DNA from: Alphaproteobacteria bacterium SO-S41
GTDB lineage: Bacteria > Pseudomonadota > Alphaproteobacteria > Micropepsales > Micropepsaceae
NCBI GenBank assembly: GCA_019670725.1
Contig: AP024629.1
Location: 868,001 to 932,000 of the forward strand
Length of the DNA stretch: 64,000 nucleotides
Direction of reading: 5' to 3'
Positions within the stretch are counted from its first letter, which is position 1; each line of letters begins with the position of its first letter. A program made the position numbers and the translations under genes. This document shows, in pieces, positions 21,114 to 56,023 of the stretch. The notes beneath the pieces are model-generated. The model was not told where the DNA came from. It made no database searches and saw only the letters and a list, made by a program, of their open reading frames with translations.

Positions 21114-22199
21114 CTAAGGCCCGCTCGCCAGCGTCGTCGCCAGCGCGTTGACGCCCTTCACGACGGCCTTCATCGCCGGGCCGGGATCGGCGGGGCGGGC
21201 CATGGCGACGAAGACGCCGACATGGGCTTCGGGCACGATGGCGATGTAGCTCATAAAGCCGCCGATATTGCCGGTCTTCTCCAGCAGGCGGACGCCGACC
21301 TCGGTCTCCGGATCGGGCAGCAGCTCGATCCAGGCGAGGCCGATCGCGTTCGCCTTGCCGGCATGGTCGAGCCCGTCGACAGGGTTCAGCGCGTCGCGCG
21401 GGAAATAGATGCGGTGGCCGATCTGGCGCCGCGGATCGGCGGCATCGCCTGCGCGCAACTGGAACTGCATCCACCGCGCCATGTCGACAGCGGTCGAATA
21501 GACGCCGCCGGCGCCCGCCATGTCGGCCTGATCGGCGCAGGGTCGCGCGGGCACGCCGCCGCGGATCATGCGGCGGCATTGTTCGGTGTTCGGGCTGGCC
21601 GTCGTGTCAGACATTGCCAGCGGCGTTGTCGTGTAGCGCGCCAGCAGATCGGGATAGGGCGCGCCGCCCGCCGCGGCCAGCGCATCGCCGAGCAGATCGA
21701 AGGCGACATTGGAATAGGCGGCCGACAGGCCCGGCGCCTTCAGCTTCTTCTGCTTCTCCAGCCAGTCCCAACGCGGCCCCGACGCCTCGCGACCGAGCCC
21801 GCTGGTATGGGTCGCGAGATTGAGCAGGGTGATGGCCGTGCCCGATTTCGCAGTCGGGACAATCCGGTCCGGCGGCGCATGATCCTGCAGCGCATCCGCC
21901 AGCGTCACCTCGCCGTCGGCGGTCATCGCGGCCAGCACATCGGCGGTCAGGAGCTTCGACAGCGAGGCGAGCCGCACAAGCGAATGCTCGTTCGGCACCA
22001 CACCGCTGCCCGGTGCGGTCTCGCCATAGCCGGCGAGGAAAACCTCATTTCCTCTGACCACCGCGACAACCATGCCGGGCGGCTTGCCCGCCGCGAACAT
22101 CGCTTCGGTCGCCGTGCGGGCGGTGCCGGTGAGGTCGGCGGCGTTTGCCGTGAAGAAAGCGCCGACGAAGGCGCAGAGAAACGTGAATCGCGCTGTCAT
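21114..22199 (-). CDS. Exported serine hydrolase, class C beta-lactamase family
   Basis: A 361-residue precursor with a signal peptide (MTARFTFLCAFVGAFFTANA) supports the start at 22199; upstream frame extension runs through a repeat and is rejected. The penicillin-binding fold motifs are present: SxxK at Ser79-Lys82, YSN at 162-164 and KTG at 308-310. Family members include AmpC, AmpH, esterases and D-aminopeptidases; the overall sequence looks like the EstB/AmpH group rather than a clear AmpC. It probably acts in the periplasm on cell-wall peptides or esters. No AmpR-like gene is adjacent. Confidence 0.88.
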   Translation of the reverse strand: MTARFTFLCAFVGAFFTANAADLTGTARTATEAMFAAGKPPGMVVAVVRGNEVFLAGYGETAPGSGVVPNEHSLVRLASLSKLLTADVLAAMTADGEVTLADALQDHAPPDRIVPTAKSGTAITLLNLATHTSGLGREASGPRWDWLEKQKKLKAPGLSAAYSNVAFDLLGDALAAAGGAPYPDLLARYTTTPLAMSDTTASPNTEQCRRMIRGGVPARPCADQADMAGAGGVYSTAVDMARWMQFQLRAGDAADPRRQIGHRIYFPRDALNPVDGLDHAGKANAIGLAWIELLPDPETEVGVRLLEKTGNIGGFMSYIAIVPEAHVGVFVAMARPADPGPAMKAVVKGVNALATTLASGP

Positions 22200-22243
22200 G
22201 GACCGCGCGATTAGCACATTGCGGCGTGGACTCTCTATCCTTG

Positions 22244-22389
22244 CTCCCGCCCGCTTGCGGGGGAGACGGCCATTCCGATCGCGGAGCGAACGGGATGGCA
22301 GAGGGGGGCATGAAAGAGGGAGAGGCCGGTGCGCTGCATCCGTCCCCTCCACCGCTTCGCGGTCCTCCTCCCCCGTAAACGGGGGAGGA
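22244..22389. repeat. Intergenic palindromic repeat of a second family
   Basis: The left part CTCCCGCCCGCTTGCGGGGGAG and the right part CCTCCCCCGTAAACGGGGGAGG are each hairpins (CCCGC-TT-GCGGG and CTCCCCCGT-AA-ACGGGGGAG). Between them lies CACCGCTTCGCGGT. The sequence is unlike the GTCATGG family elsewhere in the window. It lies between the serine hydrolase and the 60-residue membrane protein genes. Confidence 0.6.
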
Positions 22390-22761: not shown

Positions 22762-24288
22762 TTATTCGGGCAGACGCACCGGGCGCATCATGGGCATGGC
22801 GTTGAGGTCGCCATTGGCGCGCGCGGCGCCGGCCGGGCGGTAGGGTTCGGTCGGCATCTGCGGACGATTACCGGCCGGGGCCTGGCCCGCGCGGTGGGGC
22901 TGACCGCCGCGACGATCGTCGTGACGGGCGCCCTGCGGCTTGCCGTGACCGTTACCGCCGGGTTTGCCCGACTTGGCGTGGGCGGGACGTCCGCCGCCGG
23001 GGCCTTTGCCCTGGGCGGGACGGTCGCCGTTCCCCTGCGGGCGCTGGCCGTTGCCGTGGCGCTGGCCGTTGCCGCCGCGTCCCGGCTGCTGGCGGCGCAT
23101 CTCGTGCGGCTTCAGCGTGACGCTTTCCGGCGCGACGAGATTGGCTGAATTGGCGACGATCTGCCCGCGGCGGTCGACGGCGTCGATCTTGATGCGGATC
23201 AGCCGTTCGATGTCGCGCAGATAGGCGCGCTCCTCGTTATCGCAGAACGAAATCGCGACGCCCGAAGCGCCGGCGCGCGCGGTGCGGCCGATGCGGTGGA
23301 CATAGGATTCCGGAATGTTCGGCAGGTGGTAGTTCACGACATGGCTGACGGCGTCGATGTCGATGCCGCGCGCCGCGATGTCGGTGGCGACCAGAACCTT
23401 GATCGCGCCCTTCTTGAATTCGGCGAGCGCGCGTTCGCGGTTCGACTGGCTCTTGTTGCCGTGAATGGCGGCCGAGGGAATGCCGTTCTGCTCAAGATAG
23501 CGCACGACCTTGTCCGCGCCGTGCTTGGTGCGGCTGAAGACGAGGCTGCGCGTCATTTCCGGGCTGCGCAGCGCTTCGACGAGCGCGGCATTCTTTTCGG
23601 CCGGGTTCATGAACTCGACGCGCTGGCGGATCAGTTCGACCGTCGTCGCGACGGGTGTCACCTGGACGCGCGTTGGATCGGTCAGCAATTCGCCGGCGAG
23701 CTTGCCGATTTCGGTCGGCATGGTGGCCGAGAAGAACAGGCTCTGACGCTTGCGCGGCAGGCGCGGAACGATCTTCCGGATGTCGGTGATGAAGCCCATG
23801 TCGAGCATCTGGTCGGCTTCGTCGAGCACGAAGATTTCCGTGTGGTCGAACTTCACATTGCCTTCGCGCAGATGGTCGAGCAGGCGGCCGGGCGTGGCGA
23901 CGAGAATGTCGACGCCGGCGCGCAGCGCCTTCATCTGCGGCTGGTGGCCGACGCCGCCGAAGACGACGGTGACGGAGAGATTCAGGTTCTTGCCATAGGT
24001 GCGGAAGCTCTCGGCGATCTGGGTCGCGAGTTCGCGCGTCGGCGAAAGGATCAGCGCGCGGCAGGTCATCGGCTTGCGGTTCGGAATGTTCGCGGCCAGG
24101 CGCTGCAGCATGGGCAGCGCGAAGGCGGCGGTCTTGCCGGTACCGGTCTGCGCGATGCCGAGCAGGTCCTTGCCGGCGAGCACATGCGGGATCGCCTGCG
24201 CCTGGATGGGGGTGGGGGTGGTGTAGCCTTCAGCGGCGAGCGCATCCAGCAAGGGGGCGCTGAGCTGAAGATCGGTAAAAGTCGTCAC
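22762..24288 (-). CDS. DEAD-box RNA helicase, RhlE type
   Basis: A 508-residue helicase with Q-motif ([11 protein letters not shown]), motif I AQTGTGKT (46-53), PTRELA, DEAD, SAT, and motif [12 protein letters not shown]. The last 130 residues are glycine-, arginine-, histidine- and proline-rich (many GNG and GKP repeats), as in RhlE and related RNA-annealing helicases. The GTG at 24288 is chosen because it begins the conserved [14 protein letters not shown] segment, with only a weak GAAAG purine tract ahead; an upstream 40-codon extension looks non-family. Likely roles are ribosome assembly or RNA decay. Confidence 0.93.
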
Positions 24289-24547
24289 GTGGGCACTTTC
24301 ATATGCGTGCCGGCGCGCCCAAGCGAAAGCGCTGGGCGGAGCGGCGGGGGTGGCGAACGCCCCGCGTAAACTTGGGAGTTCAGGTGTTGGGATGGGCTGC
24401 CTCGGCACCGGCGCCAGTGCTCAAAACTTGAGCTAGGCGGCCTTTACGCGAGCATCGAGGCGCGAGGCCGGAATACCCGGCCATGCCGTCATATACGCCT
24501 TCGCAACTGCGAAAGCAAGGCGGTGCGGACATCTTTCCCAATTCCGG

Positions 24548-26851
24548 TCAGGGCGGGTTCGCCACCGTGAGCGGAACGCTGGCGCGCAGGATGGATTCGT
24601 CCTCGTTGTAGAAGGCGCGGATTTCATAGGCTCCGGGCTTGGTCGGCGCCTTCAGTTCGGCCCGGCCGCTCTTGGCGCCCTTGGTGTAGACATAGGACAC
24701 GTAGGACGAATAGCGCGCGCCGACCTCGGCAACGGCGACATAGTCGACATTCGAGCCGGACATGTTGTCGAACGTAATGCCGATGGTTTCGCCGGGCGCA
24801 TAGACCTGCTTCTCGAGGGCGAGCGTCGCGAGCGGCACGCCTTCCGGCGCGGTGACGGTGATCGGCACGGTCGCCCGCACGACGCTCTCGTCTTCGTTGA
24901 AGAAGGCGCGCAGTTCGTAGGCGCCCGGTTCGGCGGGGGCCTTGAGGGTGAGCGTGCCCGCGACGCTGCCGCCGGTGCGCTGGTAGACGATGTATTCCGT
25001 GTTCGCGCTGCCGGGCTTGGCCAGCGAGATATAGTCGTTGGGCGAACCCGAGAAGTTCGCGAACTTGATCTCGATGACGGCATTGGTGGGGAAGCTCGTC
25101 GCGGTCAGCGTCAGCGCGGCGGGACCGGTCGCCGCAGTGGGCGCGGGCGGGGCTTCGGGGTTGGCAGGCGCCGGCGTGGCGGCCGGTGCCGCGGCGCCGC
25201 CGACGGTGATCTTGACGCGCGCGCGGACCTTGCGCTCCTCGCGGTAATAGGCGCGCACCTCGTACTCGCCGGGCGTCGACGGGGCCTGCAGGGTCAACGA
25301 TCCCGTCGCTGTGCCGTTGGTATAGAGCCAGGGCGAACCGTAATCGTTGTCGGTCGCACCGGCCTTGGCGATGGAGATGAAGTCGCGTTTGTCGCCGGCC
25401 ATGTCGGCATAGATGATCTCGATGGGTGCGCCCGGTGCGAAGCTCGTCGCCGTCAGGGTCAGCGTCGCCTCGGCGAGTGCGATGCGCACCTGCGTTTCGG
25501 CGACAACGACGCCGTCGCGATCGACGGCGCGCACCGAATAGACGCCGGGATCGAGTGGGTAGCTGCTGGTCAGCGTCGCATCGCCCGCGGCCTTGTCGAT
25601 GATCGGGGTTTCCGAGGCGCGGGTATCAAAGAAGCTCGGCTGACCGTCGGTATTGGCGTCGAGCCGGATGGCGATCTCGCGGTCGGCGGGCATGTTGCGC
25701 CAGGCGATCGCGATGGGCTGGGTCTCGGCATAGACATCGGCGGAGGCGTCCAGCACCGGCGCGGTCGTCATCGCCTCGGCCTCGGCGCGATAGGCGCCAG
25801 CGGGGAATTTCGCGAGATAGTCTTGTGCTGCCTCGGGCGTCGCCTCAAAGACGACCTCGCGCCAGGCGTCGACATCGTCCGCGGCGGCTTCGGCCTTCGG
25901 CGTAAAGACGCCGGCGGAGAACCACTCCTTGCCGTCGTCGGGCGCGGTCAGCTCGGGTTTCGCAACCGGCGGCGTGGGCGGGGCCGGGAAGGGGGCGCCG
26001 GGGAGGCGCAGCAGGGCGAAGCCGGTCTTGCCGAGGGCGTAGTCTTCGAAGACGAGGGCGATCAGCACGGGGGCGTCGCGAGTCGGCGTCGCCTGGTCCT
26101 TCAGGACGATCGCCTGGATCGCGCCTTCGGTTTCGTTCTGCGCCTGCCACTCGCGCAGCAGGTCGGCATGGTCGCCGCCGAAGCGCGCGGTGATGTCGCC
26201 GAGACCCATCGCCTTGGCGCCTGCCTGCGTTTCGAACAGCGCGACGGTGCTCGCCACGTCCTGTGACGTCGTGAAGGTGTAGGTGCCGCTGCTTCTGCGA
26301 TCGCGGAAGAAGAGATAGCGCGGCTCCTTCGGCCAGGTGACGCCGACCGTCGCGGGATCGAACGGCAGCGGGTTGTGCACATAGCTGGAGCCGGATGGCA
26401 TGTAGTCAGGATTGGGCGCGCCGCGGGCGAACAGCACCTGCGCCTGCGGGTCGGCGAGACCCTTCAATGCACCGAGCGCGGCGCGGCGAAGAGCGGGCAC
26501 GTCGCTCAGCAGCGCCTCGCGGATGACCGGCAGATCCTCGTGCCGGGCGCCGAGACGGGCGAGGGCGTAGATCGCGGCGGTGGCGACCTGCGGCACGGGA
26601 TAACTCGCGAAGTCGCGCAGCAGCGCCGCGTGCTTATCGTAGCTGCCGTTATAGCCGATCATCGACAGCGCCTCGACAGTCGAGGGCAGCACGGACATCT
26701 GGTTGACGCGGCACTCGGAGCCGTTGGGATCGGCGCTGCAGGCGGCGATCGTCGCGTCGACGCGTTCCTTGTAGTCGTTCAACGAGAAGCGTTCATCCTC
26801 GGCAAAAGCGAGGCCTGCGAGCAGGGTCGCGGCGATCAGCATGCGCAGCAT
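24548..26851 (-). CDS. Large exported HEAT/Ig-repeat protein, copy A
   Basis: A 767-residue precursor. The signal peptide is residues 1-17 (cut near AFA|ED). Residues 53-140 look like HEAT-type helical repeats, with AIYALARLG and RRAALGALKGL. Residues 165-290 form an unrecognised domain containing VFEDYALGKTGFALLRLPG. A segment at 328-361 (YLAKFPAGAYRAEAEA) resembles a helical linker often found near periplasmic or caspase-like repeats. Four immunoglobulin-like repeats follow at about 366-456, 462-550, 578-666 and 673-763. Repeats 2-4 show a DxxSxxK/V core and a PGxYExRA end, and repeats 2 and 3 are separated by an Ala/Pro linker. It follows small protein A by 3 bases. It is a paralogue of the gene at 27727. 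Likely a periplasmic or surface scaffold; function unknown. Confidence 0.8.
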   Translation of the reverse strand: MLRMLIAATLLAGLAFAEDERFSLNDYKERVDATIAACSADPNGSECRVNQMSVLPSTVEALSMIGYNGSYDKHAALLRDFASYPVPQVATAAIYALARLGARHEDLPVIREALLSDVPALRRAALGALKGLADPQAQVLFARGAPNPDYMPSGSSYVHNPLPFDPATVGVTWPKEPRYLFFRDRRSSGTYTFTTSQDVASTVALFETQAGAKAMGLGDITARFGGDHADLLREWQAQNETEGAIQAIVLKDQATPTRDAPVLIALVFEDYALGKTGFALLRLPGAPFPAPPTPPVAKPELTAPDDGKEWFSAGVFTPKAEAAADDVDAWREVVFEATPEAAQDYLAKFPAGAYRAEAEAMTTAPVLDASADVYAETQPIAIAWRNMPADREIAIRLDANTDGQPSFFDTRASETPIIDKAAGDATLTSSYPLDPGVYSVRAVDRDGVVVAETQVRIALAEATLTLTATSFAPGAPIEIIYADMAGDKRDFISIAKAGATDNDYGSPWLYTNGTATGSLTLQAPSTPGEYEVRAYYREERKVRARVKITVGGAAAPAATPAPANPEAPPAPTAATGPAALTLTATSFPTNAVIEIKFANFSGSPNDYISLAKPGSANTEYIVYQRTGGSVAGTLTLKAPAEPGAYELRAFFNEDESVVRATVPITVTAPEGVPLATLALEKQVYAPGETIGITFDNMSGSNVDYVAVAEVGARYSSYVSYVYTKGAKSGRAELKAPTKPGAYEIRAFYNEDESILRASVPLTVANPP

Positions 26852-26854
26852 CGC

Positions 26855-27649
26855 TCAGCCCCCGCCGCTGAAAACGCCGCCGCCGCCAGTATTATAATAG
26901 GTCGGCGGGATGGGGCGCATGGCGTCGTACAACTGGCTGAGCGCGATCGAGATGAAGTCGGGGTCGAGGCAGATGTCCTTGTTGACCTCGTCGCCGTCCG
27001 AATTGGTCGTCGTCGCGGTGCACCAGCGCTTGATGTCGCGGATCGAGACGCCGCAGATCTGCAGGTTCTCGCCCTTGTCGAGGACGTGGACGCCGCCGAC
27101 ATGCATTTCGTCGACGACCTCGCGATAGACGTCGAGCGCCTCCTGCATGTCCTGCTTGTTGTCGAGCCGGCACTTCATGGACTTGAGGCACTTCTCCAAC
27201 GGGGCGCGGAAATATTCCGCCCAGCGCCGCATCTCGTTCAGCAGCGCGCCGTCGGTCGGATAGCGCCCGCGCAGGACCCAGGCGCGCTCTACCGACTGCT
27301 TATGGTTGGCGACCAGCGCCTTGCAGCTCGCATAGGAGCGCTGGGCAGATTCCTTGGCCTTGTCGCGCTCGCGGCATTCGACAATCCCATCGCGCAGATT
27401 GAGCGCGCGCTCGCGCTCCATATCGCCGTCCGCCTCGACGCCGGCGGCCATCGCGAGGTTGGTGTAGTAGCGATAGGCGGCGCGGTATTCGCGGTCGGTG
27501 AACTGCCGGTTGGGCGATTCCTCGAAGCCGCAGACGCCGAAGATCTGGTCGGCGGTCAGATAGCCGGTTTTCGGGCCGGCCGCGGCGATTCCACCGACAA
27601 AAGCGAACAACAAGGCGGCGCAGCAGAACAATCGGGCGAAGTGCGTCAT
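26855..27649 (-). CDS. Small exported eight-cysteine protein, copy A
   Basis: A 264-residue precursor with a signal peptide (FARLFCCAALLFAFVGGIAAA). It shares with copies B and C eight cysteine positions (VCGF, ECRE, SCKA, EKC, MKC, QIC, WC and a later C), plus the PLEKCLKSMKC segment and a YREVVDEM helix. Unlike B and C it lacks the IRIRTFP tail and instead ends in a glycine-rich stretch (GGGGVFSGGG). The body is mostly charged helices. It is immediately followed by large protein A, the same pairing as copy B with large B. I do not recognise the family; it may bind the large protein or form a disulphide-stabilised helical bundle. Confidence 0.78.
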   Translation of the reverse strand: MTHFARLFCCAALLFAFVGGIAAAGPKTGYLTADQIFGVCGFEESPNRQFTDREYRAAYRYYTNLAMAAGVEADGDMERERALNLRDGIVECRERDKAKESAQRSYASCKALVANHKQSVERAWVLRGRYPTDGALLNEMRRWAEYFRAPLEKCLKSMKCRLDNKQDMQEALDVYREVVDEMHVGGVHVLDKGENLQICGVSIRDIKRWCTATTTNSDGDEVNKDICLDPDFISIALSQLYDAMRPIPPTYYNTGGGGVFSGGG

Positions 27650-27677
27650 GACGCCAATCTAGCGTCATGATCCCCAA

Positions 27678-27710
27678 GGGTCAGGCGACAGAGTGTCGCC
27701 GCCCTGACCC
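27678..27710. terminator. Hairpin between large B and small A
   Basis: GGGTCAGGCGACA (27678-27690) can pair with TGTCGC plus CTGACCC (27694-27710) with a short GCC bulge. It lies in the 77-base gap between the two cassettes. No T tract follows on the minus strand, so it may attenuate or protect RNA ends rather than terminate. Confidence 0.5.
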
Positions 27711-27726
27711 GCTCAGATTGCAGGCG

Positions 27727-29967
27727 CTAGGGCGCTGCTACCGTGATCACGACGCTGCCCCGCAAAATCGTCGCGTCTTCCTTGAAGAAGGCGCGGATTT
27801 CATAGGTGCCCGGCTTGGCCGGTGCCTTCAACTCCGCCCGGCCCTCGATCGCGCCCTTGGTGTAGACATAGGACTCATACTGGCCGTAACGCGCGCCTGT
27901 CGCGGCGACGGCGACATAGTCGTTGCGCGCCCCCGACATGCCCGCGAAGTCGATGGGGATCGTCTCGCCTGGCGCGAAGCTGGTCTTCGCGAGGGTCAGC
28001 GTCGCCTGCGCCGCGCCTTCCGCGACCTTGATCGTGAGGAGCTGGGTGAAGGCGACGGCGCCGCCGACAAACGCGCGCATCTCGTAAGCGCCGGGTTCGG
28101 GCGGCAGTTTCATTTCAACAAGACCGGAGCCCGTCCTGGTGTCGGCATAGGCGACATAGGCGCCGGGCGCGGCGCCGGCCGCGGCGAGATAGATCGAGCC
28201 GCCATTCGCGGGATAGCCGGCAAAGCGCACGGCGATCGTCTCGTTCGCCGTGAAGCTCTCGGCCGCCATGGCGAGCGTCGGCGTCGCGGCGTCGTTGATC
28301 TGCGGCGGTTCGTCCGGGCCGCGTACGGTGAAGGCGATACGGGCGCGCAGGCGCGGATCGCGCTCGAACCAGGCGCGCAGCTCGTACTCCCCCGGTTCTT
28401 TCGGCGCGGTCAGCGTGACCTTGCCCTCGGCGCCGCCGCCGGTTTCGACACGCACCGCACCGGTCTCGTCCAGCGGCGTGCCCTTCTTCGCGATGGTGAT
28501 GAGATCGCGCGGCTTGCCGCCCATGGCGCTGAACGCGACGGCGATGTCCTCGCCGGGCTTGAAGCTGTCGCGCTCGATAGTCAGCAGCGCGGCGGCGAGG
28601 CCGATACGGATCTGCGTGGTGGCGATCGCCTCGTTCGCGCTGTCGATGAGGCGCAGGTCGTACACACCGGGTTCGATCACCGAGTAATAGGCAAGCTCTG
28701 CCGTGCCTTCCGCCGTCGTGACGTCGGGCTTCTCGGTCGCCTGCGTGTCCGACAGTCGCTCATCGCCCGCGCGGCCGAGTGTCAACTGCCCTTGCACATC
28801 GGCAGGCAGGCCACGCCAGGTGACCTTGATCGTGTCGGTCTCGGCATAGACGTCCTGGTCGGTGGTGATGGTCGGCCCGTTCACCAACGCTTCCGCTTCG
28901 GCGCGATACGCGCCGTTCGGGAAGGCGGCGAGATAGTCGGCCGCACCGGCGCCATCAGCGTCCAGCACCGCACGCCACGCGGCGACATCGTCTGCGGCCG
29001 CGCCCTCCTTGGGCGTGAACTTGCCCTTGCCCCACCAGATCGCGGCGTCGCCGGTCGGTGCGGGCGGCGGCGCTTCCGCGACGCGTGGCGGGCGCGACAG
29101 TTCCTCGCCGGGCAGGCGCACGAGCGCAAAGCCCGTCGCGCCCAGCGCGTAGTCTTCATAGACGAGCGCCAGCGTGACCGGCTCGCGTTCGCTGGGCGTG
29201 GCGACGTCTTTCAGGACAACCGCCTGCACCGCGCCCAGCGTCGCATTGCGCTCGACCCACGGCTTCAGCAGATCGCCATAGGCAGCGCCGAAGCGCGCCT
29301 CGATCTCGCCCATCCCTACGGCCTTTGAGCCCGCCTGCGCCTCGAACGACGCCAGCACCGCCGCCGCATCGGGCGAGGCGATGAAGACGTAAGTGCCTTT
29401 GCGGAACAGCGGTTGGAAGTGGAGGAAGCGCGCGCCCTCGGGCCACGCCACGACGCCGGCCTCAGCGGGATCGAAGGGCAGGGTGTCGGCTTCGAAATTG
29501 GAGCCTGAGGGCATGGTGACGGCGCGCGCGACGATCTCCTGCGCGGCGGCATCGGGCAGCAGCTTCAGCGCACCCAGCGCGGCGCGGCGCACGCCGGGGA
29601 TGTCGCTCAGCACAGCGTCGCGGAAAACGCCGAAATCCTCGGCCGTCGCGCCGAGGCGGGCGAGGGCATAGATCGCGGCGGCCTGGATATACGGTTCGGG
29701 AAACGCCGCGAACTCGCGCAGGAACGCGCCCGAGTCCGCATAGCTCGTCTCGTAGCCGAGAAAACTCAGCGCATCGACCGTGCTGGGCAGTACCGAGCGC
29801 AGATGCGCCTGGCAGACGCCGCCTTCAGGCGCCGCCTCGCAGGCCTCGATCGCCGCCTTCATACGGTCGGGATAGTCGTTGAGCGTAAAGCGTTCACTCT
29901 CCTCGGCGAAGGCAGGCTGGAGCGCGAAGAGCGACAGGGCCGCGGCGGCAACGAAACGTGTGGTCAT
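27727..29967 (-). CDS. Large exported HEAT/Ig-repeat protein, copy B
   Basis: A 746-residue precursor with a signal peptide (MTTRFVAAAALSLFALQPAF, cleavage near AFA|EE). The architecture matches copy A throughout: ERFTLNDY after the signal, HEAT-like helices with AIYALARLG and RRAALGALK, a middle domain with YEDYALGATGFALVRLPGE, a YLAAFPNGAYRAEAEA linker, and four immunoglobulin-like repeats ending with VVITV. Three clustered ATGs exist (29976, 29973, 29967). The last is preferred because CAGGG lies about nine bases upstream; the first would overlap the small B stop as ATGA. Translational coupling to small B is likely. Function unknown; see copy A. Confidence 0.8.
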   Translation of the reverse strand: MTTRFVAAAALSLFALQPAFAEESERFTLNDYPDRMKAAIEACEAAPEGGVCQAHLRSVLPSTVDALSFLGYETSYADSGAFLREFAAFPEPYIQAAAIYALARLGATAEDFGVFRDAVLSDIPGVRRAALGALKLLPDAAAQEIVARAVTMPSGSNFEADTLPFDPAEAGVVAWPEGARFLHFQPLFRKGTYVFIASPDAAAVLASFEAQAGSKAVGMGEIEARFGAAYGDLLKPWVERNATLGAVQAVVLKDVATPSEREPVTLALVYEDYALGATGFALVRLPGEELSRPPRVAEAPPPAPTGDAAIWWGKGKFTPKEGAAADDVAAWRAVLDADGAGAADYLAAFPNGAYRAEAEALVNGPTITTDQDVYAETDTIKVTWRGLPADVQGQLTLGRAGDERLSDTQATEKPDVTTAEGTAELAYYSVIEPGVYDLRLIDSANEAIATTQIRIGLAAALLTIERDSFKPGEDIAVAFSAMGGKPRDLITIAKKGTPLDETGAVRVETGGGAEGKVTLTAPKEPGEYELRAWFERDPRLRARIAFTVRGPDEPPQINDAATPTLAMAAESFTANETIAVRFAGYPANGGSIYLAAAGAAPGAYVAYADTRTGSGLVEMKLPPEPGAYEMRAFVGGAVAFTQLLTIKVAEGAAQATLTLAKTSFAPGETIPIDFAGMSGARNDYVAVAATGARYGQYESYVYTKGAIEGRAELKAPAKPGTYEIRAFFKEDATILRGSVVITVAAP

Positions 29968-29972
29968 GATCA

Positions 29973-30755
29973 TCATCCCTGAACCGTGCCGCCGGGCGGC
30001 GTGCTGGGAAAAGTCCGGATGCGGATCTGCTGAAACCAGCGGATCACGTTCATCAGTTCGGCGCCGTTGGTGCACCAGTCCTCGGGGTTGGACTGGCCTT
30101 CCTTGCCGGCCGCTTCCCGCGTCGTGCACCAGTCGCGGACATCGCGGAGGGTGGAGCCGCAAATCTTCATGTTGCGGATGCCTTTGACGGCCAGCAGCCA
30201 TGTCTCCATCTCGTCGACGATCTGACGATAGACGGCGACCGTTTCATCCATGTCCTGCTGGTTGCCGAGGCGGCACTTCATCGACGCCAGGCACTTCTCC
30301 AGCGGCGCGCGGTAACGCTCGCCCCACAGGGTGGCCAGCACCTGCGCGACATCGCCGCTTTCGACGGCCCGCCAGGCGCTCTCGGTCGCCGCCCGGTGCT
30401 CGCGCACGAGATCCTTGCAGCTCCGCATCGCACGCTTGGCGAAGCGCTTCTGGCGATCATCTTCGCGGCAATATTTGAGGAAGCTGCGCGTGTGGTCGAG
30501 CGCCTCTGCCTCGTCCGATCTAAGGTCCAGTCTGGAAATCCGGCCGGAAACCTCGGCGATGGCGCGCGCGTATTCGCTGTCGAGGAAATAGGGCTCGCTG
30601 CTTTTGTCCTCGTCGCAGATCTCGACCATCATTTCGGGCGTCAATCGTCCGACGCTGGGCGAACTGCGCCCGCCCCCTGTTGCGGATTGCGCCAGCGCAT
30701 GGCCGGCCGTTGCAGCGGCGAGGGCTGCAATGAGGAACGTCGATATGAAGCGCAC
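29973..30755 (-). CDS. Small exported eight-cysteine protein, copy B
   Basis: A 260-residue precursor with a signal peptide (MRFISTFLIAALAAATAGHA). It has EICDEDKSSEPYFLDSEYARA after a short linker, then RAMRSCKDLVREH, PLEKCLASMKC, MKICGSTLRDVRDWC and the tail IRIRTFPSTPPGG. These are shared closely with copy C. All eight cysteines of the family are present (an extra pair of tryptophan-cysteine occurs near the end). It is directly coupled to large protein B. Confidence 0.8.
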   Translation of the reverse strand: MRFISTFLIAALAAATAGHALAQSATGGGRSSPSVGRLTPEMMVEICDEDKSSEPYFLDSEYARAIAEVSGRISRLDLRSDEAEALDHTRSFLKYCREDDRQKRFAKRAMRSCKDLVREHRAATESAWRAVESGDVAQVLATLWGERYRAPLEKCLASMKCRLGNQQDMDETVAVYRQIVDEMETWLLAVKGIRNMKICGSTLRDVRDWCTTREAAGKEGQSNPEDWCTNGAELMNVIRWFQQIRIRTFPSTPPGGTVQG

Positions 30756-30924
30756 GAAGTCACGACCGTTGTTGAATGGCAGAGCCGTCCGAGGCTAGAC
30801 GCCCCGGTGGCGGCTTTGTGACTACGGTTTGTCATCGGTGAGGCGCGCAAGGCTAAGGTCATCCGTCACACCCATCGGCGTTGTGAGGCGGGATCACGGG
30901 CAGTTGAGGAAGGCGCGGGCATCG

Positions 30925-31719
30925 TCAGGGCGCTGCAACCGGAACAGCGCCGCCGGGCGGTGCCGTCGGGAAGGTCCGTATACGGATATTCTGCAGCAGC
31001 TTGATGGTCAGCATCAGGCTGCGACCGTCCTTGCAGTCGTCGCGGGTCTTCACGATGTTGTTTTCGTCCGGGCGGTCCTTGACCTCGCACCAGTTGCGGA
31101 CGTCGCGAATGGTCGAGCCGCAGATCTTCATCTTCTCGGCGCCCTTCACGTCCTGGAACCAGCCGGTCATCTCGTCGACGACCTCGCGATAGACGGAGAG
31201 GGTTTCCTCCAGATCCTTCTTGTTCTCGGTGCGGCACTTCATCGATTTCAGGCACTTGTCGAGCGGCGCGCGGAACCGCTCGCCCCAAGACATCACCTCC
31301 CCGCGCGGGGTGTAGCCGTATTCGATGATCGCCTCGGCGCGTTCGGACGCCGCCTTGTGCTCGCGCACCAGATCCTTGCAGCTCCGCATCGCACGCTTGG
31401 CGGCGCGCTTGTTGAGATCGTTCTCGCGGCATTCCGCGAGGCCGTCGCGGAGGCCGTTGATGCGATCATGCTGAGCTTGCGGGATATCCAGGCGGCCGAG
31501 CTGCGAGTCGTACTCTGCAAGCGCGCGGCGATATTCGCTGTCGAGGAAGAACGGCTCGTCCTGGTTTTCGAAGCCGCAGATCTCGAATATCTGGTCGGGC
31601 GTGATCTGCTGAACCCGGTGGGAGCGCCGGGCTTCCAGCGTCGGCACGGTGAACGATGCGGCAGAGGCGATTCCCACGGCCACGACGGCCACGAGGAGCA
31701 TCAGTGAACAGCGCAGCAT
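30925..31719 (-). CDS. Small exported eight-cysteine protein, copy C
   Basis: A 264-residue precursor with a signal peptide (CSLMLLVAVVAVGIASA). It has the same landmarks as copy B: FEICGF, DSEYRRAL, CREND, RAMRSCKDLVREHKAA, PLDKCLKSMKC, MKICGSTIRDVRNWC and IRIRTFPTAPPGG. Copy C is the most upstream gene of the array and has no large partner of its own; 169 bases separate it from copy B. It ends in a short Ala/Val/Pro tail. Confidence 0.8.
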   Translation of the reverse strand: MLRCSLMLLVAVVAVGIASAASFTVPTLEARRSHRVQQITPDQIFEICGFENQDEPFFLDSEYRRALAEYDSQLGRLDIPQAQHDRINGLRDGLAECRENDLNKRAAKRAMRSCKDLVREHKAASERAEAIIEYGYTPRGEVMSWGERFRAPLDKCLKSMKCRTENKKDLEETLSVYREVVDEMTGWFQDVKGAEKMKICGSTIRDVRNWCEVKDRPDENNIVKTRDDCKDGRSLMLTIKLLQNIRIRTFPTAPPGGAVPVAAP

Positions 31720-31845: not shown

Positions 31846-33222
31846 CTAGCGCGCGTTGGCGAGAATGGCCTGCACGAGGCCGAGCGCCTTCGCGCCCTGC
31901 TCGTCGAGCGGATCGAGGTCGCAGCCGCGGCGCAGCGCCGCTTCCGCTTCCGCATAGCGACCCTCGTTGAAGAGCGCATAGCCAAGCATGATCCAGGGCC
32001 GGCCATAGTCCGGCGCCTTGTCCGCGGCGTCGCGCCACAGCGCGACCTCATCGGCGAAGAGCGCATTGCGCGCGACGGTGTGACTACCGAGCAGCACGGT
32101 TCCGAACAGCGCGACTGTCGCGAGAAAGCTGAGCGCCGCGCGGCTGTTGCCCGCCAGTCGCAGCAGGAGCATCGACGCCGCGAGGGTGAGGCCGAGCCCG
32201 CCGAGATAAAGCGGTTTCAGCGCAACGGGATCGGCGCGCCACAGCAGCGTGTTGGAGGGCGCGAGCGCGAGAAGCGCCAGGCCGATGCCGAGCGCGAAGA
32301 CCGGCGCCCGCCGCCGCAGCGCAAGCGCGGCGAGCGCGAGGCCCGCGAAGAGCGCGAGCTTGGCGAGCGTGCGCGCATCGCTCCACCCCCAGGCGAGTGG
32401 TGTCGGCGGATCGATGGTGACGCGCCACGGCGTCACCCAATAGCTGAGTATGTCCGTCGCCGCGTGGAGATTGCCGAGCAACGCGTCCGGCGGTGCGCGT
32501 CGTGCAAGGCTGTCGCCGATCAGCGCGGTGTGGCGCGGCAGCGCGAGGATGACGATCGCGGCGATAGCCGCGCCGATCAGCACCGGCGTGAAACGGCGCA
32601 GCGAGATGGCCAGACTTTCGCTGGGCTGCACCGTTAACTGCCACCAGAGCAGCATGACGGGTGCGATCAGCGCCGTCTCGCGCGCCAGCGGCGCCAGGAC
32701 CGCGCAGGCGACGGCGATGAGGCGATTGCCCGTCGTCCGCTCGCCCGTCGCGGCGAGCAGCATGCCGAGCACGAAGCAGGACGAGACCCCCATGGAGCGC
32801 CCGCTGACATAGGTGACGGTCTCGGTCAGCGCGGGATGAACCGCCCACAGTGCGGTGACGGCGAAGGCGACTGTCGTGGCCGCACTGCCGCTGCTGCCGG
32901 CAAAGCGCAGCGCGCGGCGCAGCAGACCGAACGCCATCACCGTCGCCACGGCGTGCAGCGCGACGTTGACGGCATGATAGCCGGCCGCCCACGGCCCGTG
33001 GACCAGGTCCTGTAGTGCATAGCTCGCTTTGGTCAGCGGCCGGTTCATCACGCCGAGCCGCGCGAAGAACGTCTCGGCTTTGGCGGAGGGATTGGCGGTG
33101 ATGTCGCCGATATCGTCGAAGACGAAGATGCCGTTCGCCGCATTGGCGAAGACCACGAGGACGAGGCCCGCGATGACGAAGGGCGCAGCGCGTTCGAAGC
33201 GCCGCGCCGGTTCGTCAGGCAT
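31846..33222 (-). CDS. Polytopic membrane protein with C-terminal TPRs (TMTC-like)
   Basis: A 458-residue protein with about ten transmembrane helices and a first periplasmic loop containing FVFDDIGDITANP, followed by RPLTKASYALQ and GYHAVNVALHAVATV. This is the pattern of the TMTC (DUF1736) group, whose eukaryotic members O-mannosylate proteins; the loop aspartates would be the catalytic acids. The C-terminal ~60 residues resemble tetratricopeptide repeats (GYALFNEGRYAEAEAALRRG). It overlaps the nitronate monooxygenase gene by 8 bases. A glycosyltransferase role is inferred. Confidence 0.75.
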   Translation of the reverse strand: MPDEPARRFERAAPFVIAGLVLVVFANAANGIFVFDDIGDITANPSAKAETFFARLGVMNRPLTKASYALQDLVHGPWAAGYHAVNVALHAVATVMAFGLLRRALRFAGSSGSAATTVAFAVTALWAVHPALTETVTYVSGRSMGVSSCFVLGMLLAATGERTTGNRLIAVACAVLAPLARETALIAPVMLLWWQLTVQPSESLAISLRRFTPVLIGAAIAAIVILALPRHTALIGDSLARRAPPDALLGNLHAATDILSYWVTPWRVTIDPPTPLAWGWSDARTLAKLALFAGLALAALALRRRAPVFALGIGLALLALAPSNTLLWRADPVALKPLYLGGLGLTLAASMLLLRLAGNSRAALSFLATVALFGTVLLGSHTVARNALFADEVALWRDAADKAPDYGRPWIMLGYALFNEGRYAEAEAALRRGCDLDPLDEQGAKALGLVQAILANAR

Positions 33223-34171
33223 GGGCGGCCATCCGGCCGAGCCCGGCGGCGATCTCGGCGAACTCGGCGACGGTCTCGCCGATGATCTGCTTCACCGGCT
33301 TAACGCTGTCGATGCGGCCCGCGACCTGGCCGGAGAGCGCGATCGAGGCTTCCATGTCGCCGCCGAAATAGAGGTCCTTGGCATGGCCGAACTCGGTCAT
33401 GACCGGCGGACCCTTATAGTCGGGCGTCAGCTCGCGCTCGAGCCGCGTCGTCTTTTCAGTGCGCAGCGCGCGCAGCGCCGGGCTGCCGAAACGGTTGAGG
33501 AAGACCGTGCCGGTCTCCTCGGCGTTGATGATCGCATCCTTCCAGTTCTGGTGCACCGGCGATTCCGCCGCGGAGACCATGCGCGTTCCCATCTGCACGC
33601 CCTCCGCGCCGAGCGCGAAGGCCGCCGCCATGGTGCGCCCGTCGGTGATGCCGCCGGCGGCAATGATCGGCACGCCGGTCTTCTCGCGCACCAGCGGCAG
33701 CAGAACCATGGTCGCGACATCCTTGGGGTTCTTGAACCCGCCACCCTCGGCGCCTTCGACGACGAGACCGTCAACGCCGGCTTCCACCGCCTTCAGCGCA
33801 GCCTTCAGTGTGGGCACGACGTGGAAGACGGTGAGGCCAGCTCCCTTCAGCGCCTCGGTATAGCGCGTGGGATCGCCGGCCGAGGTAGTGACGAACTTGA
33901 TGCCCTGATCGACCACGAACTTGACGATATCGGGATCGCGCACGAAGGCCTGGGCGATGTTCACGCCGAACGGCTTGGTGGTCAGCGTCCGCATCTTCAG
34001 GATTTCGGCGCGCACCTCATCCAGCGCACCGGACGAGGTCTCGATGATCCCCATGCCGCCGGCATTGGAAACGGCGGAGGCAAGCTGCGCCCGCGCTATC
34101 CAGCCCATCGGCGCCTGGACGATGGGATATTCGACGCCCAGCAGCCGCGTGATGCGGTTGTCGAACTTCAC
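33215..34171 (-). CDS. Nitronate monooxygenase family FMN protein
   Basis: This 318-residue TIM-barrel flavoprotein begins with GTG (34171) and shows IVQAPMGWIARAQLASAVSNAGGMG, GLVVEGAEGGGF, and PIIAAGGITDGRTMAAAFALGAEGVQMGTR. These are the nitronate monooxygenase/FabK-like phosphate-binding and substrate-channel segments. It overlaps the acyl-CoA synthetase stop by four bases (GTGA), so the two form an operon. The association with an acyl-CoA ligase suggests a role in oxidising a small nitro or enoyl substrate, but this is not shown. Confidence 0.88.
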   Translation of the reverse strand: MKFDNRITRLLGVEYPIVQAPMGWIARAQLASAVSNAGGMGIIETSSGALDEVRAEILKMRTLTTKPFGVNIAQAFVRDPDIVKFVVDQGIKFVTTSAGDPTRYTEALKGAGLTVFHVVPTLKAALKAVEAGVDGLVVEGAEGGGFKNPKDVATMVLLPLVREKTGVPIIAAGGITDGRTMAAAFALGAEGVQMGTRMVSAAESPVHQNWKDAIINAEETGTVFLNRFGSPALRALRTEKTTRLERELTPDYKGPPVMTEFGHAKDLYFGGDMEASIALSGQVAGRIDSVKPVKQIIGETVAEFAEIAAGLGRMAAHA

Positions 34172-35928
34172 GCCGCATCCTCCACGAACAGCGCCTTCAG
34201 ATCCTTCTTCATGATCTTGCCGTTGGCGTTGCGCGGCAAATTGTCGGGCAGGAAGATGATCTTCACGGGCACCTTGAAGGCGGCCAGTTTCTTGCCGACG
34301 AAGCCGCGCAGTTCGGCCTCGGTCGCGGACGCGCCGGGCTTCAAGTGCACGGCGGCGACAGGTTCCTCGCCCAGCGTGCGGTGCGGGCGGCCGACGACGG
34401 CGGCATCCATCACCGCCTCGTGGTCGTAGAGCGCGTTCTCGACCTCGATGCAGTAGATGTTCTCGCCGCCGCGGATCAGCATGTCCTTGGCGCGGTCGAC
34501 GATATAGATGAAGCCCTCGTCGTCGATCCGAGCGAGATCGCCGGTATGGACCCAGCCATCGGTGAAGGTTTCGGCGGTGGCTTCGGGCTTGCCCCAATAG
34601 CCGCGCACGACGGTCGGCCCCTTGTACCAAAGCTCCCCGATTTCGCCGAGCGGCAGCGCCTTGCCGTCCAGCGACATGATCTTGGCTTCACCCGTCGGCG
34701 TGACGAGGCCGCAGCTCGCGGGTTTGCGGATATAGTCCTCGGCCGTGTTGGTGGTCGCGGTCGCCGAGGTTTCCGTCATGCCCCAGCCCTGGCCGGGTTG
34801 CGATTTGGGGAAGCGCTCCTTGATGCGGCGCACGAGCTCGGGCGCCGAGGGGGCGCCGCCATAGGAAATGCCTTCCAGTGAGGAGAGGTCGAACTCGTCG
34901 AACCGGGGATGCTCGACGATCTGCCAGGCGATGGTCGGCACGCCGCCGGCATTGGTGATCTTCTCCCGCTCGATCAGCGCCAGCGCCTGGTCGGCGTCCC
35001 AGCGGCGCTGCAGCACGAGCTTGCCGCCCGTCGCCATGGACGGGATCATCACCGCGAAGCAGCCGGTGGCATGGAAGAATGGCACCGACAGCAGCACCGC
35101 GCGGCGCGGCAGTGCCGGATCGGGCGCAGGCGGAACCTCGCCGCGGCGGAGGAACGCGCGCGCCTGGGCGGCGGCGGCGTTGACGAAGTTCGAGACGATG
35201 TTGCGGTGGCTGATGACCGCGCCCTTGGGCTTACCGGTCGTGCCCGAGGTGTAGAAGATCGTGACGTCGTCATCGCCGTCGAGCGCGACGCCGGGCAGGG
35301 CGCCGTCGGGCAGCTTCGCCCAGTCATTGGGGACGCCGATGATCTCTTCGAGGCGGACGATGCGGGGATCGGGCGTCGCCGACGCGGCGCGGCAGAGATA
35401 GACGTGCTCCAGCGCGGGGCAATTGGCGGCATGGGGGGCGATGCGCTCCCAGCGCTCGCCGTCGGCGATCACCACCTTGGCGCCGGAATCCTGCAGGCCG
35501 TATTCCAGCTCCGCGCCGGTCCACCAGGCATTCAGCGGCGTCACGATCGCGCCGACCAGTACGCCGGCCCAGAAGGCGGCCGACCATTCGGGGAGGTTAC
35601 GCGCGACGATGGCGACGCGGTCGCCCTTCTTCACGCCATCGGCGATCAGCCGGGCGGCGAGCGCGGCGACCGCCTTGCGGTGGTTACGGAAGGTGACGCG
35701 GTCTTCGTCGAGCACGATATAGTCGTGATCGGGCCACTGCATGCACGCCTCGAAAATCTCGCCCAGCGTCTTGGGGACATTCTTCCAGGTCTTGTAGGTG
35801 ACGCCGCGGATGACGATGTCTTCCATCTCCAGCGCCCCGCCGGGCACGCCCGTCATGAAGGCGTTGCAGTCGGCGATGGAGAGCGCCGGAAAGCCGGCGG
35901 GCAACAGATCGGACAGGTCGTCGGACAT
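34168..35928 (-). CDS. AMP-dependent acyl-CoA synthetase
   Basis: A 586-residue adenylate-forming enzyme with the P-loop TIFYTSGTTGKPKGAV, the GYWGKPEATAE and WVHTGDLARID motifs and the C-terminal PRNANGKIMKKDL with the catalytic lysine. The start at 35928 has GAGGAAACG just ahead; an upstream ATG would add 16 residues without a ribosome site. It activates a carboxylic acid, probably a medium- or long-chain fatty acid, to its CoA ester. It is the first gene of a three-gene operon with nitronate monooxygenase and the TMTC-like protein. Confidence 0.92.
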   Translation of the reverse strand: MSDDLSDLLPAGFPALSIADCNAFMTGVPGGALEMEDIVIRGVTYKTWKNVPKTLGEIFEACMQWPDHDYIVLDEDRVTFRNHRKAVAALAARLIADGVKKGDRVAIVARNLPEWSAAFWAGVLVGAIVTPLNAWWTGAELEYGLQDSGAKVVIADGERWERIAPHAANCPALEHVYLCRAASATPDPRIVRLEEIIGVPNDWAKLPDGALPGVALDGDDDVTIFYTSGTTGKPKGAVISHRNIVSNFVNAAAAQARAFLRRGEVPPAPDPALPRRAVLLSVPFFHATGCFAVMIPSMATGGKLVLQRRWDADQALALIEREKITNAGGVPTIAWQIVEHPRFDEFDLSSLEGISYGGAPSAPELVRRIKERFPKSQPGQGWGMTETSATATTNTAEDYIRKPASCGLVTPTGEAKIMSLDGKALPLGEIGELWYKGPTVVRGYWGKPEATAETFTDGWVHTGDLARIDDEGFIYIVDRAKDMLIRGGENIYCIEVENALYDHEAVMDAAVVGRPHRTLGEEPVAAVHLKPGASATEAELRGFVGKKLAAFKVPVKIIFLPDNLPRNANGKIMKKDLKALFVEDAA

Positions 35929-52889: not shown

Positions 52890-54371
52890 TCACTCCGCTT
52901 TAAGACCGCTCAATTCGATCAGATGGAAGACGCGCTTGCGGTCCTTGCCGATGATCGCGGAGAGGATTTCGATCTCCTCGGCGCGTGCGAAGCGCGCGGT
53001 GACATCGCTCGAATCCTCGCGCCGGGTTACGAAAAGGACATGTTCGGGCTCGCCCGCATAAGCCCGCGTCATCTGGAAGTGATCCATGGGATGCGCGGGT
53101 TCGGGCGTCCACATCAGGATCGGCACGCCGCTGTCGCGCGTGTAGTAGAGCATCGACGCCATGTCCTCGCGGTCCTCGGCGAGGATCGCCTGGAAGCCGC
53201 CTTCATGCGCGGCGCGTGCGATCGCCGGTCCCTGAGTGTTCCATCCGCGCAACAGTTTCGCCGCATTGGTGATGCCGAGCCATTCGACGACACGCGGCGA
53301 GACGGCGCCGGCGGAGAACACGGCGACGACAACGAGCGCGAGCAGGGTCGAGAGCTGCAGCACGCGCAAGCCGCCGCGCAGCAGCCAGGCGACCACGACG
53401 AGGCTGAGGCCGACATAGGCCGCGGCCGCCCAGTTGGCGTTGGCCTTGGAGTAGAAGGCGATGCCGAGGCCGGCGACGAGCACGGGAAGGCTGATCAGGA
53501 TCAAGACGACGTCGTTGCTCTCGGTCCGCGGCCAGCTTCTGCGGCGGAGGCCGAGCGCGAGGCCGGCGATGATCACCGCGAAGAGCAGCGGCCCGAACAC
53601 GCCGAACTGGGCGCCGAAGAAATCGCCGAGATGGGCGAGATTGAAGTGCTCGGCATTCTGGACGCCGGCGTTATAGGCGGTGTGCGCGACGGTCGCGAAG
53701 CCGTGCTGGGCATTCCACCAGGCGTTCGGCGCGGCGCAGATCAGGAAGACGCCGAGGATGATCGCCCCGTTGAGCCCGAGGACATGGCCCCGCACCCGCC
53801 GGTCGAACAGCGCGGCGAGCGCGAGACCCATCAGGAAATAGGCGCCGGCATATTTGGCGAGGAAGGCGAGCCCGATGGCGAGCCCGAGCAGTGCCGCGAG
53901 GCCGCGCGCCTCGGCCGGGGCGCGCGGTAGCATCAGGCCGAGCACGAAGATCGCCACCGACCAGAACATCAGCAGCGGCACGTCGGTGGTGATGAGGAGG
54001 CTGGAGAGGGTGATCCCGGGCAAGGTCAGGAAGACGAGCGCCGCCCAGAACCCGGCGCGCGCGCTGTAGAGCACCCGGCCCGCCTCGAACATGAAGATCG
54101 CGGCGATGGCGTAGAGCAGCGGCGAGGCGGCGCGGACGCAGCCCTCGCCGTCGCCGCAGACGCTGGTCGTGCCGGCGATGATCCAGGCGATCATCGGCGG
54201 CTTGGAGAAGTAGCCGAAGGCCGGCTCCTTCGACCATGCCCAGTACTGCGCCTCGTCGGGCCCGAGATTGAGGTCGGTCAGGAAGACGACGACGAGCCGC
54301 AGCACCGTCAGCGCGACGATGATCGCGAGCGCGCGCAGCCACAGGCGGCGGTCGTCGGCGGCGGCGCTCAT
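52890..54371 (-). CDS. ArnT-like membrane glycosyltransferase (GT-C fold)
   Basis: A 493-residue protein with about ten helices and the loop-1 motif LGPDEAQYWAW, whose acidic residue is catalytic in the ArnT/PMT family, plus FSKPPMIAW. It uses polyprenyl-phosphate sugars to modify lipid A or another envelope acceptor. A ~130-residue periplasmic C-terminal part follows the helices. It overlaps the next (upstream) GT-C gene by 4 bases. Confidence 0.85.
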   Translation of the reverse strand: MSAAADDRRLWLRALAIIVALTVLRLVVVFLTDLNLGPDEAQYWAWSKEPAFGYFSKPPMIAWIIAGTTSVCGDGEGCVRAASPLLYAIAAIFMFEAGRVLYSARAGFWAALVFLTLPGITLSSLLITTDVPLLMFWSVAIFVLGLMLPRAPAEARGLAALLGLAIGLAFLAKYAGAYFLMGLALAALFDRRVRGHVLGLNGAIILGVFLICAAPNAWWNAQHGFATVAHTAYNAGVQNAEHFNLAHLGDFFGAQFGVFGPLLFAVIIAGLALGLRRRSWPRTESNDVVLILISLPVLVAGLGIAFYSKANANWAAAAYVGLSLVVVAWLLRGGLRVLQLSTLLALVVVAVFSAGAVSPRVVEWLGITNAAKLLRGWNTQGPAIARAAHEGGFQAILAEDREDMASMLYYTRDSGVPILMWTPEPAHPMDHFQMTRAYAGEPEHVLFVTRREDSSDVTARFARAEEIEILSAIIGKDRKRVFHLIELSGLKAE

Positions 54372-56023
54372 CGGGCGGGACGCAGGCGATAGAGGCCGAT
54401 ATCGACCTTCTGGCCGCGCGAATAGTTGAAGCCCTCGATCTCCGACACCTTGTCGACGCGGATGCCGGTCGCAGCGACCCCGCTCTCGAAGCTCTGGAAC
54501 TCGCGGCCTTCGACGATCGCCAGGCCCGCGGGGTTGGCCTTCAGGAACGAGGCTGCCGCCGCGCCGTCGTCGACGAGGCGAAGATCGGTCGCGGTCAGGA
54601 AGACGAGGCTCGGCTCGTGATAGCCGGACGCCGCGATCGGTTCGCCCGGCGTCCAGCCGGCCGCCCGCGCGGCCTCGGCAAGGCGCGGGCTGACGCCCAG
54701 ATCCTGTGCCCCGCCCAACGTGTTGGCGAAGATGCCGACCAGCGCGATGGCGCTCAGCACCACGGCGCCCGGCAAGAAGAGCCGCCAGGTGTCGCTGAGC
54801 ACGATCGCCATAAGGATCGTCGCTGCCGCGATCACCACAAGGGCGAAGGCGATGTCGGTGAAGCCGATCCCGCCGCTATAGAGGTGCGGGATGTAGAACA
54901 TCACGGCCGCGATCACGACGACCATCAGGCCCCAGAGCACGCGGCCCGTCACCCGCGCCGCCAGCGGTGTCGCATCCGGCTCGCGGGCGAAACGCGCGCC
55001 GACATAGGCGCCGATCGCGAGCGCCAGCGCCGGATAGACCGGCAGCACATAGTGCGGCAGCTTGGTCGGCAGGATTTCGAAGACCAGCCAGGTCGGCACC
55101 GCCCAGGCGATCAGGAACATCGCCCAAGGCGCCTTGCGCTGCTGCACCGCGCGCCACGCGGCGGGGATCAGCAGCAGCGAACCGGGGAACAGCGTCAGCG
55201 TGACGAGCAGCAGGTAATAGCCGGGGAAGCCGCTATGCTTTTCCTGCGCGCCCGCGACCTTGGACAGCATGTCGCCCCAGATCGCGTCGTACCAGAACGA
55301 CCATCCCGTCTGCAGCGTGATCGCCACCGCCCAGGGCAGTACGATCAGCAGCGCCAGCGGCGCCCAGAGCAGCGGGCGCGTCCGCTTCACCCAGCCGAGC
55401 CCGCCGCCCATCAGCCACAGTGCGACGATCGCGAGCCCGCCGACCATCAACCCGACCGGCCCCTTGATGAGGGCGCTGACGCCGAGCCCCGCACCGATCA
55501 GCAGCGTGTCGCTCCACCGCCCCGCCGCGCCGGGTTCGGTGCGCTGGCGCATGAAGGCGCGCGCGAAGCCGGCCATCATCGCCGTGATGGCCGCGGTCTG
55601 CATCGCATCGGTCTTGCCGATATGGCCTTCGGCGACCATCAGGACCGAGATGCCGAACAGCACCGCGCCGATCGCCGCCGCCCGCCGATCCAGCAGGGCG
55701 GCGCCCGCCAGATAGGTGAAGAAGATCGCCAGCACCGCGCCGATGGCGGAGGGGATGCGATAGGCCCAGATCGGGGCCTCGGCCGGGCCGCCCAGCGCCG
55801 CGGCGCTCGCCGCCTGCATCCAGTAGATGCCGACCGGCTTCTTGTTGCGAGCGGTGTCCTGGAAGCGGATTTCCACGGGATCGCCGGTCTCCAGCATCTG
55901 CTTGGTCGCCTGGGCGAAGCGCGACTCGTCGCGGTCCAGCGGCGGCATCGAGAAGAAGCCGGGGGTCAGGAAAACCAGCACATAGAGAAGGAAAAGGACG
56001 GCGGCGGAGACGCGGGAGGGCAT
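54368..56023 (-). CDS. ArnT-like membrane glycosyltransferase (GT-C fold)
   Basis: A 551-residue relative of ArnT with the loop-1 motif PPLDRDESRFAQATKQM and KKPVGIYWMQ. These match glycosyltransferase family 39/83 enzymes well. About twelve helices precede a periplasmic C-terminal domain. It is co-transcribed with the shorter GT-C gene and diverges from the GT2 gene, which could provide the polyprenyl-linked sugar. The acceptor is unknown. Confidence 0.88.
   Translation of the reverse strand: MPSRVSAAVLFLLYVLVFLTPGFFSMPPLDRDESRFAQATKQMLETGDPVEIRFQDTARNKKPVGIYWMQAASAAALGGPAEAPIWAYRIPSAIGAVLAIFFTYLAGAALLDRRAAAIGAVLFGISVLMVAEGHIGKTDAMQTAAITAMMAGFARAFMRQRTEPGAAGRWSDTLLIGAGLGVSALIKGPVGLMVGGLAIVALWLMGGGLGWVKRTRPLLWAPLALLIVLPWAVAITLQTGWSFWYDAIWGDMLSKVAGAQEKHSGFPGYYLLLVTLTLFPGSLLLIPAAWRAVQQRKAPWAMFLIAWAVPTWLVFEILPTKLPHYVLPVYPALALAIGAYVGARFAREPDATPLAARVTGRVLWGLMVVVIAAVMFYIPHLYSGGIGFTDIAFALVVIAAATILMAIVLSDTWRLFLPGAVVLSAIALVGIFANTLGGAQDLGVSPRLAEAARAAGWTPGEPIAASGYHEPSLVFLTATDLRLVDDGAAAASFLKANPAGLAIVEGREFQSFESGVAATGIRVDKVSEIEGFNYSRGQKVDIGLYRLRPAR

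Follow-up and report, generated by a model that had tools for sequence, protein, structure and literature searches.

Five consecutive minus-strand genes in the stretch of DNA analyzed here (64,000 nucleotides of contig AP024629.1 from Alphaproteobacteria bacterium SO-S41; hereafter, the window) encode exported proteins belonging to only two families, small and large, in the order smallC, smallB–largeB, smallA–largeA (Table 1). The genes were found exactly where the preliminary description had placed them, and the five-gene, two-family exported system is confirmed. The pairing of small with large is well supported: in all six small–large pairs, found in four genomes, the two genes overlap by at most 4 bases or are at most 3 bases apart, and because the same coupling recurs in all six, it exceeds what chance would produce. 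The preliminary description was of a two-family system, and both families and their coupled pairs stand; however, the unit also includes a third member, TPRmem, which is present at all five loci. Because this third gene belongs to the unit and diverged loci show the same pairing, the observation is now stronger than the original sequence-only reading. As a tentative explanation, in which our confidence is rather less than even, we propose that small and large form an obligate exported pair that would be glycosylated by the co-encoded TPRmem.

Table 1. Features of the small–large region and its flanks (window positions; residue numbers for protein repeats).
Feature	Position	Strand	Properties
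Nitronate monooxygenase-like gene	33215..34180	(-)	Overlaps TPRmem by 8 bases
TPRmem	31846..33222	(-)	Multi-TM, one C-terminal TPR, TMTC/GT-C-like motifs; just upstream of smallC
smallC	30925..31719	(-)	264 aa; exported-type helical protein; 8 Cys in mature part
smallB	29973..30755	(-)	260 aa; GTG start; 8 Cys in mature part; 4-base overlap with largeB
largeB	27727..29976	(-)	749 aa; signal peptide; Cys pair 46/55; HEAT about residues 74-137; uncharacterized middle
largeB Ig-like repeats (n=4)	residues 369-458, 465-551, 567-638, 659-746		
smallA	26855..27649	(-)	264 aa; most diverged of the three smalls; 8 Cys in mature part
largeA	24548..26851	(-)	767 aa; signal peptide; Cys pair 38/47; HEAT 60-129; Ala/Pro/Thr-rich linker
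largeA Ig-like repeats (n=4)	residues 369-457, 463-550, 580-667, 676-763		
DEAD-box helicase	22762..24408	(-)	Downstream flank of type-1 locus; outside cassette

The codon-position GC of the five reading frames was of the coding type, and the frames were kept in orthologs from two other genomes. The start of largeB was set at position 29976, where a signal peptide is found; the mechanically called ORF begins further upstream. Signal peptides had been claimed for all five proteins, and an N-terminal hydrophobic stretch ending in an AxA-like site was read by eye in each of them. A crude hydropathy scan agreed for the three window smalls and largeB, with the leader of largeA falling below the threshold, and detected no further TM segments in the smalls or larges. 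The tight junctions described earlier (overlap or gap of at most 5 bases) were measured as a 4-base overlap (ATGA) at smallB/largeB and a 3-base gap at smallA/largeA. Paralogy of the two pairs was likewise borne out by identities of 37–47% among the smalls (smallC shared 47% and 37% with the other two) and 51% between largeA and largeB.

Our sample of the genus comprised five genomes, G000 (that of the window) to G004. The order TPRmem–small–large was observed at all five loci, one each in G000, G003 and G004 and two in G002. Single-copy type-1 loci occupy the window-equivalent site in G002 (C248) and G003 (C1), where the order is nitronate monooxygenase, TPRmem, small, large and DEAD helicase. 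At the type-2 loci (G002:C281 and G004:C171) TPRmem, small and large are located elsewhere, behind a LuxR-type response regulator gene, and identity to the window copies is 22% for small and about 30% for large. Conservation of small–large adjacency, which the preliminary description had left to be checked, was found in every pair, contrary to the possibility that the two families never co-occur. All three genes were absent from G001. At the empty site of G004, the helicase and AMP-ligase genes adjoin with about 0.2 kb between them; G004 therefore lacks the whole type-1 block at this position, the monooxygenase included. The nitronate monooxygenase-like gene thus accompanies the type-1 cassette and is lost with it at this site; its product would be a soluble oxidase, yet it accompanies exported proteins. 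Just past the helicase, at 21114-22352 of the window, is a gene for a Beta-lactamase-family (PF00144) serine hydrolase, which is also found near the helicase in G001.

Full-length TPRmem matches (over 700 bits, 120 relatives) were confined to genomes that also have small and large. Across 385 class genomes, profiles of small and of the N-terminal half of large gave nothing convincing, the matches being due to chance, to HEAT or to a “YLxxFPxGAY” type; matches of the last type were rejected as family members, those checked falling in caspase-domain proteins. A scan of genome contigs recovered only two loci, both in MAGs of the same genus, and no full member of the trio was found outside the genus among the 120 relatives and 385 class genomes. 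Because the TPRmem, profile and contig searches found members in the genus only, the TPRmem–small–large unit is, as far as sampled, genus-restricted, and the distribution of the cassette on this evidence is narrow.

The small family had been described as matching nothing that could be named, and comparisons with Pfam, NCBIfam and PADLOC indeed gave no credible match. Eight Cys occupy matching positions in the mature part of all five type-1 smalls (three in the window and one each in G002 and G003), and the diverged type-2 smalls keep six of them, which suggests that four disulfides in type-1 and three in type-2 proteins would form after export. A search of the PDB with the small-family profile returned designed TPR proteins only, over a short helical stretch and with no stretch passing alone; these matches were put down to composition bias and rejected. 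The AlphaFold model of smallC (pLDDT 63.5) consisted mostly of helices, with residues 60-160 modeled at moderate confidence, and a Foldseek search of the PDB with it gave no match at E <= 0.001. The family was absent from the plasmids and from the viral contigs searched. Judged from these comparisons, small is an unnamed exported family that appears restricted to the genus and is paired with large at every locus found.

The larges consist of a HEAT region, an unassigned middle and C-terminal Ig-like repeats, of which there are four in type-1 and two clear ones in type-2 proteins. The earlier HEAT/Ig assignment is thereby supported, with HEAT matches (E 1.1e-5 and 4.1e-6) just short of the Pfam cut-off and MG2/Ig-like matches (E 1.4e-5 and 3.7e-4) also short of it. 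Every large carries one Cys pair, with constant spacing, near the mature N-terminus. Linkers rich in Thr and Pro, which would suit O-glycans, occur in largeA and in the type-2 larges, but none is clear in largeB. TIR-domain proteins encoded in these genomes carry the Ig-like repeat as well, as do VWA proteins from other Alphaproteobacteria; in a plasmid search with large, the Ig part alone matched, again in VWA proteins. These TIR-TM-Ig and VWA-Ig proteins share the repeat of the C-terminal half of large, whereas their N-terminal domains are TIR or VWA, and no adjacent small gene was recognized. Since the repeat is a shared module, small and the N-terminal half of large are the sole distinctive parts. 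The MG2 matches could also be taken to mean that large is a reduced alpha-2-macroglobulin-like inhibitor, and bacterial alpha-2-macroglobulins do share this Ig fold match. Large, however, is half their usual length and has an incomplete domain set, its MG2-like stretch is the general Ig repeat of the TIR and VWA proteins, and it has no CxEQ thioester, because its two Cys are both N-terminal. With only the MG2-like part detected by Pfam, and with neither the thioester nor a TED domain found, we rejected this identity, which we regard as scarcely credible. Three TIR proteins of the type mentioned above (L038:6012-7805, at about 184 kb of G000:C1, L039 and L040) have one apparent TM region, three large-type Ig repeats and weak PADLOC TIR matches; L041 and L042, in G004 and G002, are related to them, and their TIR part looks shortened by eye. 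No PADLOC anti-phage defense model matched the five window proteins or TPRmem.

TPRmem contains the motifs D36-D37, N60-R-P-L-T, N86/H90, H129-P, R142, R181-E-T and Y339, and D36, D37, N86, H90, H129, P130, R142, R303 and Y339 were invariant across 16 diverse family members. Of 299 genomes sampled across the phylum, 30 contained the family to which its membrane part belongs, and the best match outside the genus had E 2e-38. TMTC1-4 are eukaryotic O-mannosyltransferases of cadherins, with the ligand motifs M1 DD, M2 SHKSYRP, M3 RxD, M4 KE(T/Q)xxT, M5 DW, M6 PxxP and M7 ERxxY (PMC7801869). The DD motif of their first lumenal loop is represented in TPRmem by the invariant D36-D37, and further invariant residues correspond to the R of M3 and the Y of M7. 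Placed by eye, the other motifs are kept only in part: RP of M2, R of M3, R-E-T in place of M4, D and P in place of M5, and K..Y in place of M7. TPRmem resembles TMTC1-4 in having a multi-TM N-terminal part and a C-terminal TPR, with DD following the first TM helix, an RP motif, a conserved Arg, (K/R)ET and a conserved Tyr close to where the membrane part ends; the Ig-like repeats of large, as the candidate acceptor, recall the beta-sandwiches of cadherins. In contrast to TMTC1-4, TPRmem is bacterial and shorter; it lacks the Asp of RxD, has Lys in place of the Arg of ERxxY, and has a single TPR (E about 1e-5 to 1e-6), fewer than the TMTCs. TMTC_DUF1736 (PF08409) had no match in TPRmem or its relatives and was dropped as a link between TPRmem and the TMTCs. 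TPRmem may at most be called TMTC-like by motif and layout, and we do not class it as a TMTC.

Bacterial GT-C enzymes of the PMT_2/ArnT type (PF13231) share with TPRmem an acidic pair in the first loop and many TM helices; TPRmem differs in having no Pfam match to them and a weak profile–profile match only (hhalign, 18% probability). Its sequence matched no GT-C structure in the PDB, and its AlphaFold model (pLDDT 46) was too poor for use. Two adjacent PMT_2-type GT-C membrane glycosyltransferases are encoded elsewhere in the window, at about 52890-56023 (G000:C1:921715-923843). With regard to genomic context, a GT2 gene begins 5 bases past large at the G004 type-2 locus and is followed by two more GT-like genes; immediate glycosyltransferase neighbors were found at this one of the five cassette loci. 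A TPRmem relative in another class adjoins GT2 and GT1-type genes, so that the context lends some support to a glycosyltransferase reading of TPRmem. Another relative (L121:7064-16000) has genes for secretin, T2SSE and T2SSF as neighbors, which points to a cluster of the pilus type. The closest relative outside the genus (L117:6597-9973) follows genes for a DUF3617 exported protein and an apparent D-Ala-D-Ala carboxypeptidase-like protein, and neither small nor large was found near it.

In the mechanism that we favor, the basic unit would be TPRmem–small–large, and the window would represent an expanded copy of this genus-restricted exported cassette. The disulfide-rich, helical small and the large, a HEAT and Ig-like rod, would be exported together and act as partners, either in the periplasm or on the surface. 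TPRmem would be a GT-C-type glycosyltransferase using a polyprenyl-phosphate sugar and acting like the eukaryotic TMTC proteins, its C-terminal TPR end recruiting the small–large pair, which would be O-glycosylated after export. The two pairs and the lone small of the window would provide alternative pairings, with one TPRmem serving all. The co-encoding, the coupling, the export-type leaders, the co-occurrence and the conservation of Cys were shown directly; small–large complex formation, the disulfides, the glycosyltransfer and the identity of the acceptor are inferred. In favor of this explanation we counted the constant gene order, coupled junctions, co-occurrence, conserved Cys, invariant TPRmem residues and glycosyltransferase neighbors; against it, the failure to find PF08409, the weak PMT_2 match, the lack of a GT-C structure matched by sequence, the low pLDDT of the model, the neighbors being limited to one of five loci, and largeB without a clear Thr/Pro-rich linker. 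The more specific proposal of a bacterial TMTC-like glycosylation operon, in which a membrane TPR glycosyltransferase would be encoded with its dedicated, exported Ig-repeat acceptor and with a small disulfide-rich protein, from a new family, as the obligate partner, several pairs being served by one enzyme in this strain, is in our judgment unlikely.

The coupling in six of six pairs would also fit the view of the preliminary description that small and large make up a complex, here an exported one with a structural or adhesive role; TPRmem would then be no glycosyltransferase but an anchor in the membrane, an assembly factor or a partner in secretion. This is a possible, if somewhat doubtful, alternative; it agrees with the weak or failed GT-C profile tests and with Ig and HEAT modules being typical of binding scaffolds, but it leaves aside that DD, HP..R and (K/R)E of TPRmem are largely kept over 16 diverse homologs, as expected of an enzyme, and that TPRmem relatives adjoin glycosyltransferases. 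Those same neighbors, namely the GT2 and two GT-like genes after the G004 type-2 locus and the GT2/GT1 genes beside one relative, would fit a TPRmem whose glycosyltransferase activity serves a polysaccharide or lipid of the cell surface, small and large then being exported accessories or binding proteins of that pathway rather than acceptors. Such a pathway seems improbable to us, in that the type-1 loci are flanked by helicase, nitronate monooxygenase and AMP-ligase genes and by no polysaccharide cluster. Tandem duplication of one ancestral locus could yield all the window copies even if small and large were functionally unrelated and adjacent merely through duplication of a chromosomal stretch. 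We consider this very improbable: the order and coupled junction are kept at a second, non-syntenic and strongly diverged locus type, and small and large are missing together from the empty site in G004.

If the glycosylation mechanism is true, the cassette would genetically link a TMTC-like enzyme to its Ig-type acceptor in a compact bacterial system, making the donor, the acceptor and the role of the TPR accessible to tests in a simple host. Should glycosylation not hold, small would still be an unnamed exported family, restricted to the genus and paired with large at every locus found.

The preliminary description had also proposed that the pair was duplicated and an extra small copy added. 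Duplication with an extra small was supported, but not as a simple recent event in this genome, since a clade of the three window smalls was rejected (AU p = 0.002), and with it a recent duplication of all three within this genome. Clades of largeA with largeB and of smallA with smallB were not clearly rejected (p about 0.07 for both). LargeB grouped with the single-copy larges and largeA branched outside them (tree support 94/98), and smallC was the window small closest to the single-copy smalls of two other genomes (57%). The simplest reading would be an older expansion with losses elsewhere, the long branches making the branching order uncertain, and smallC would then most simply be a small that lost, or never had, a neighboring large.
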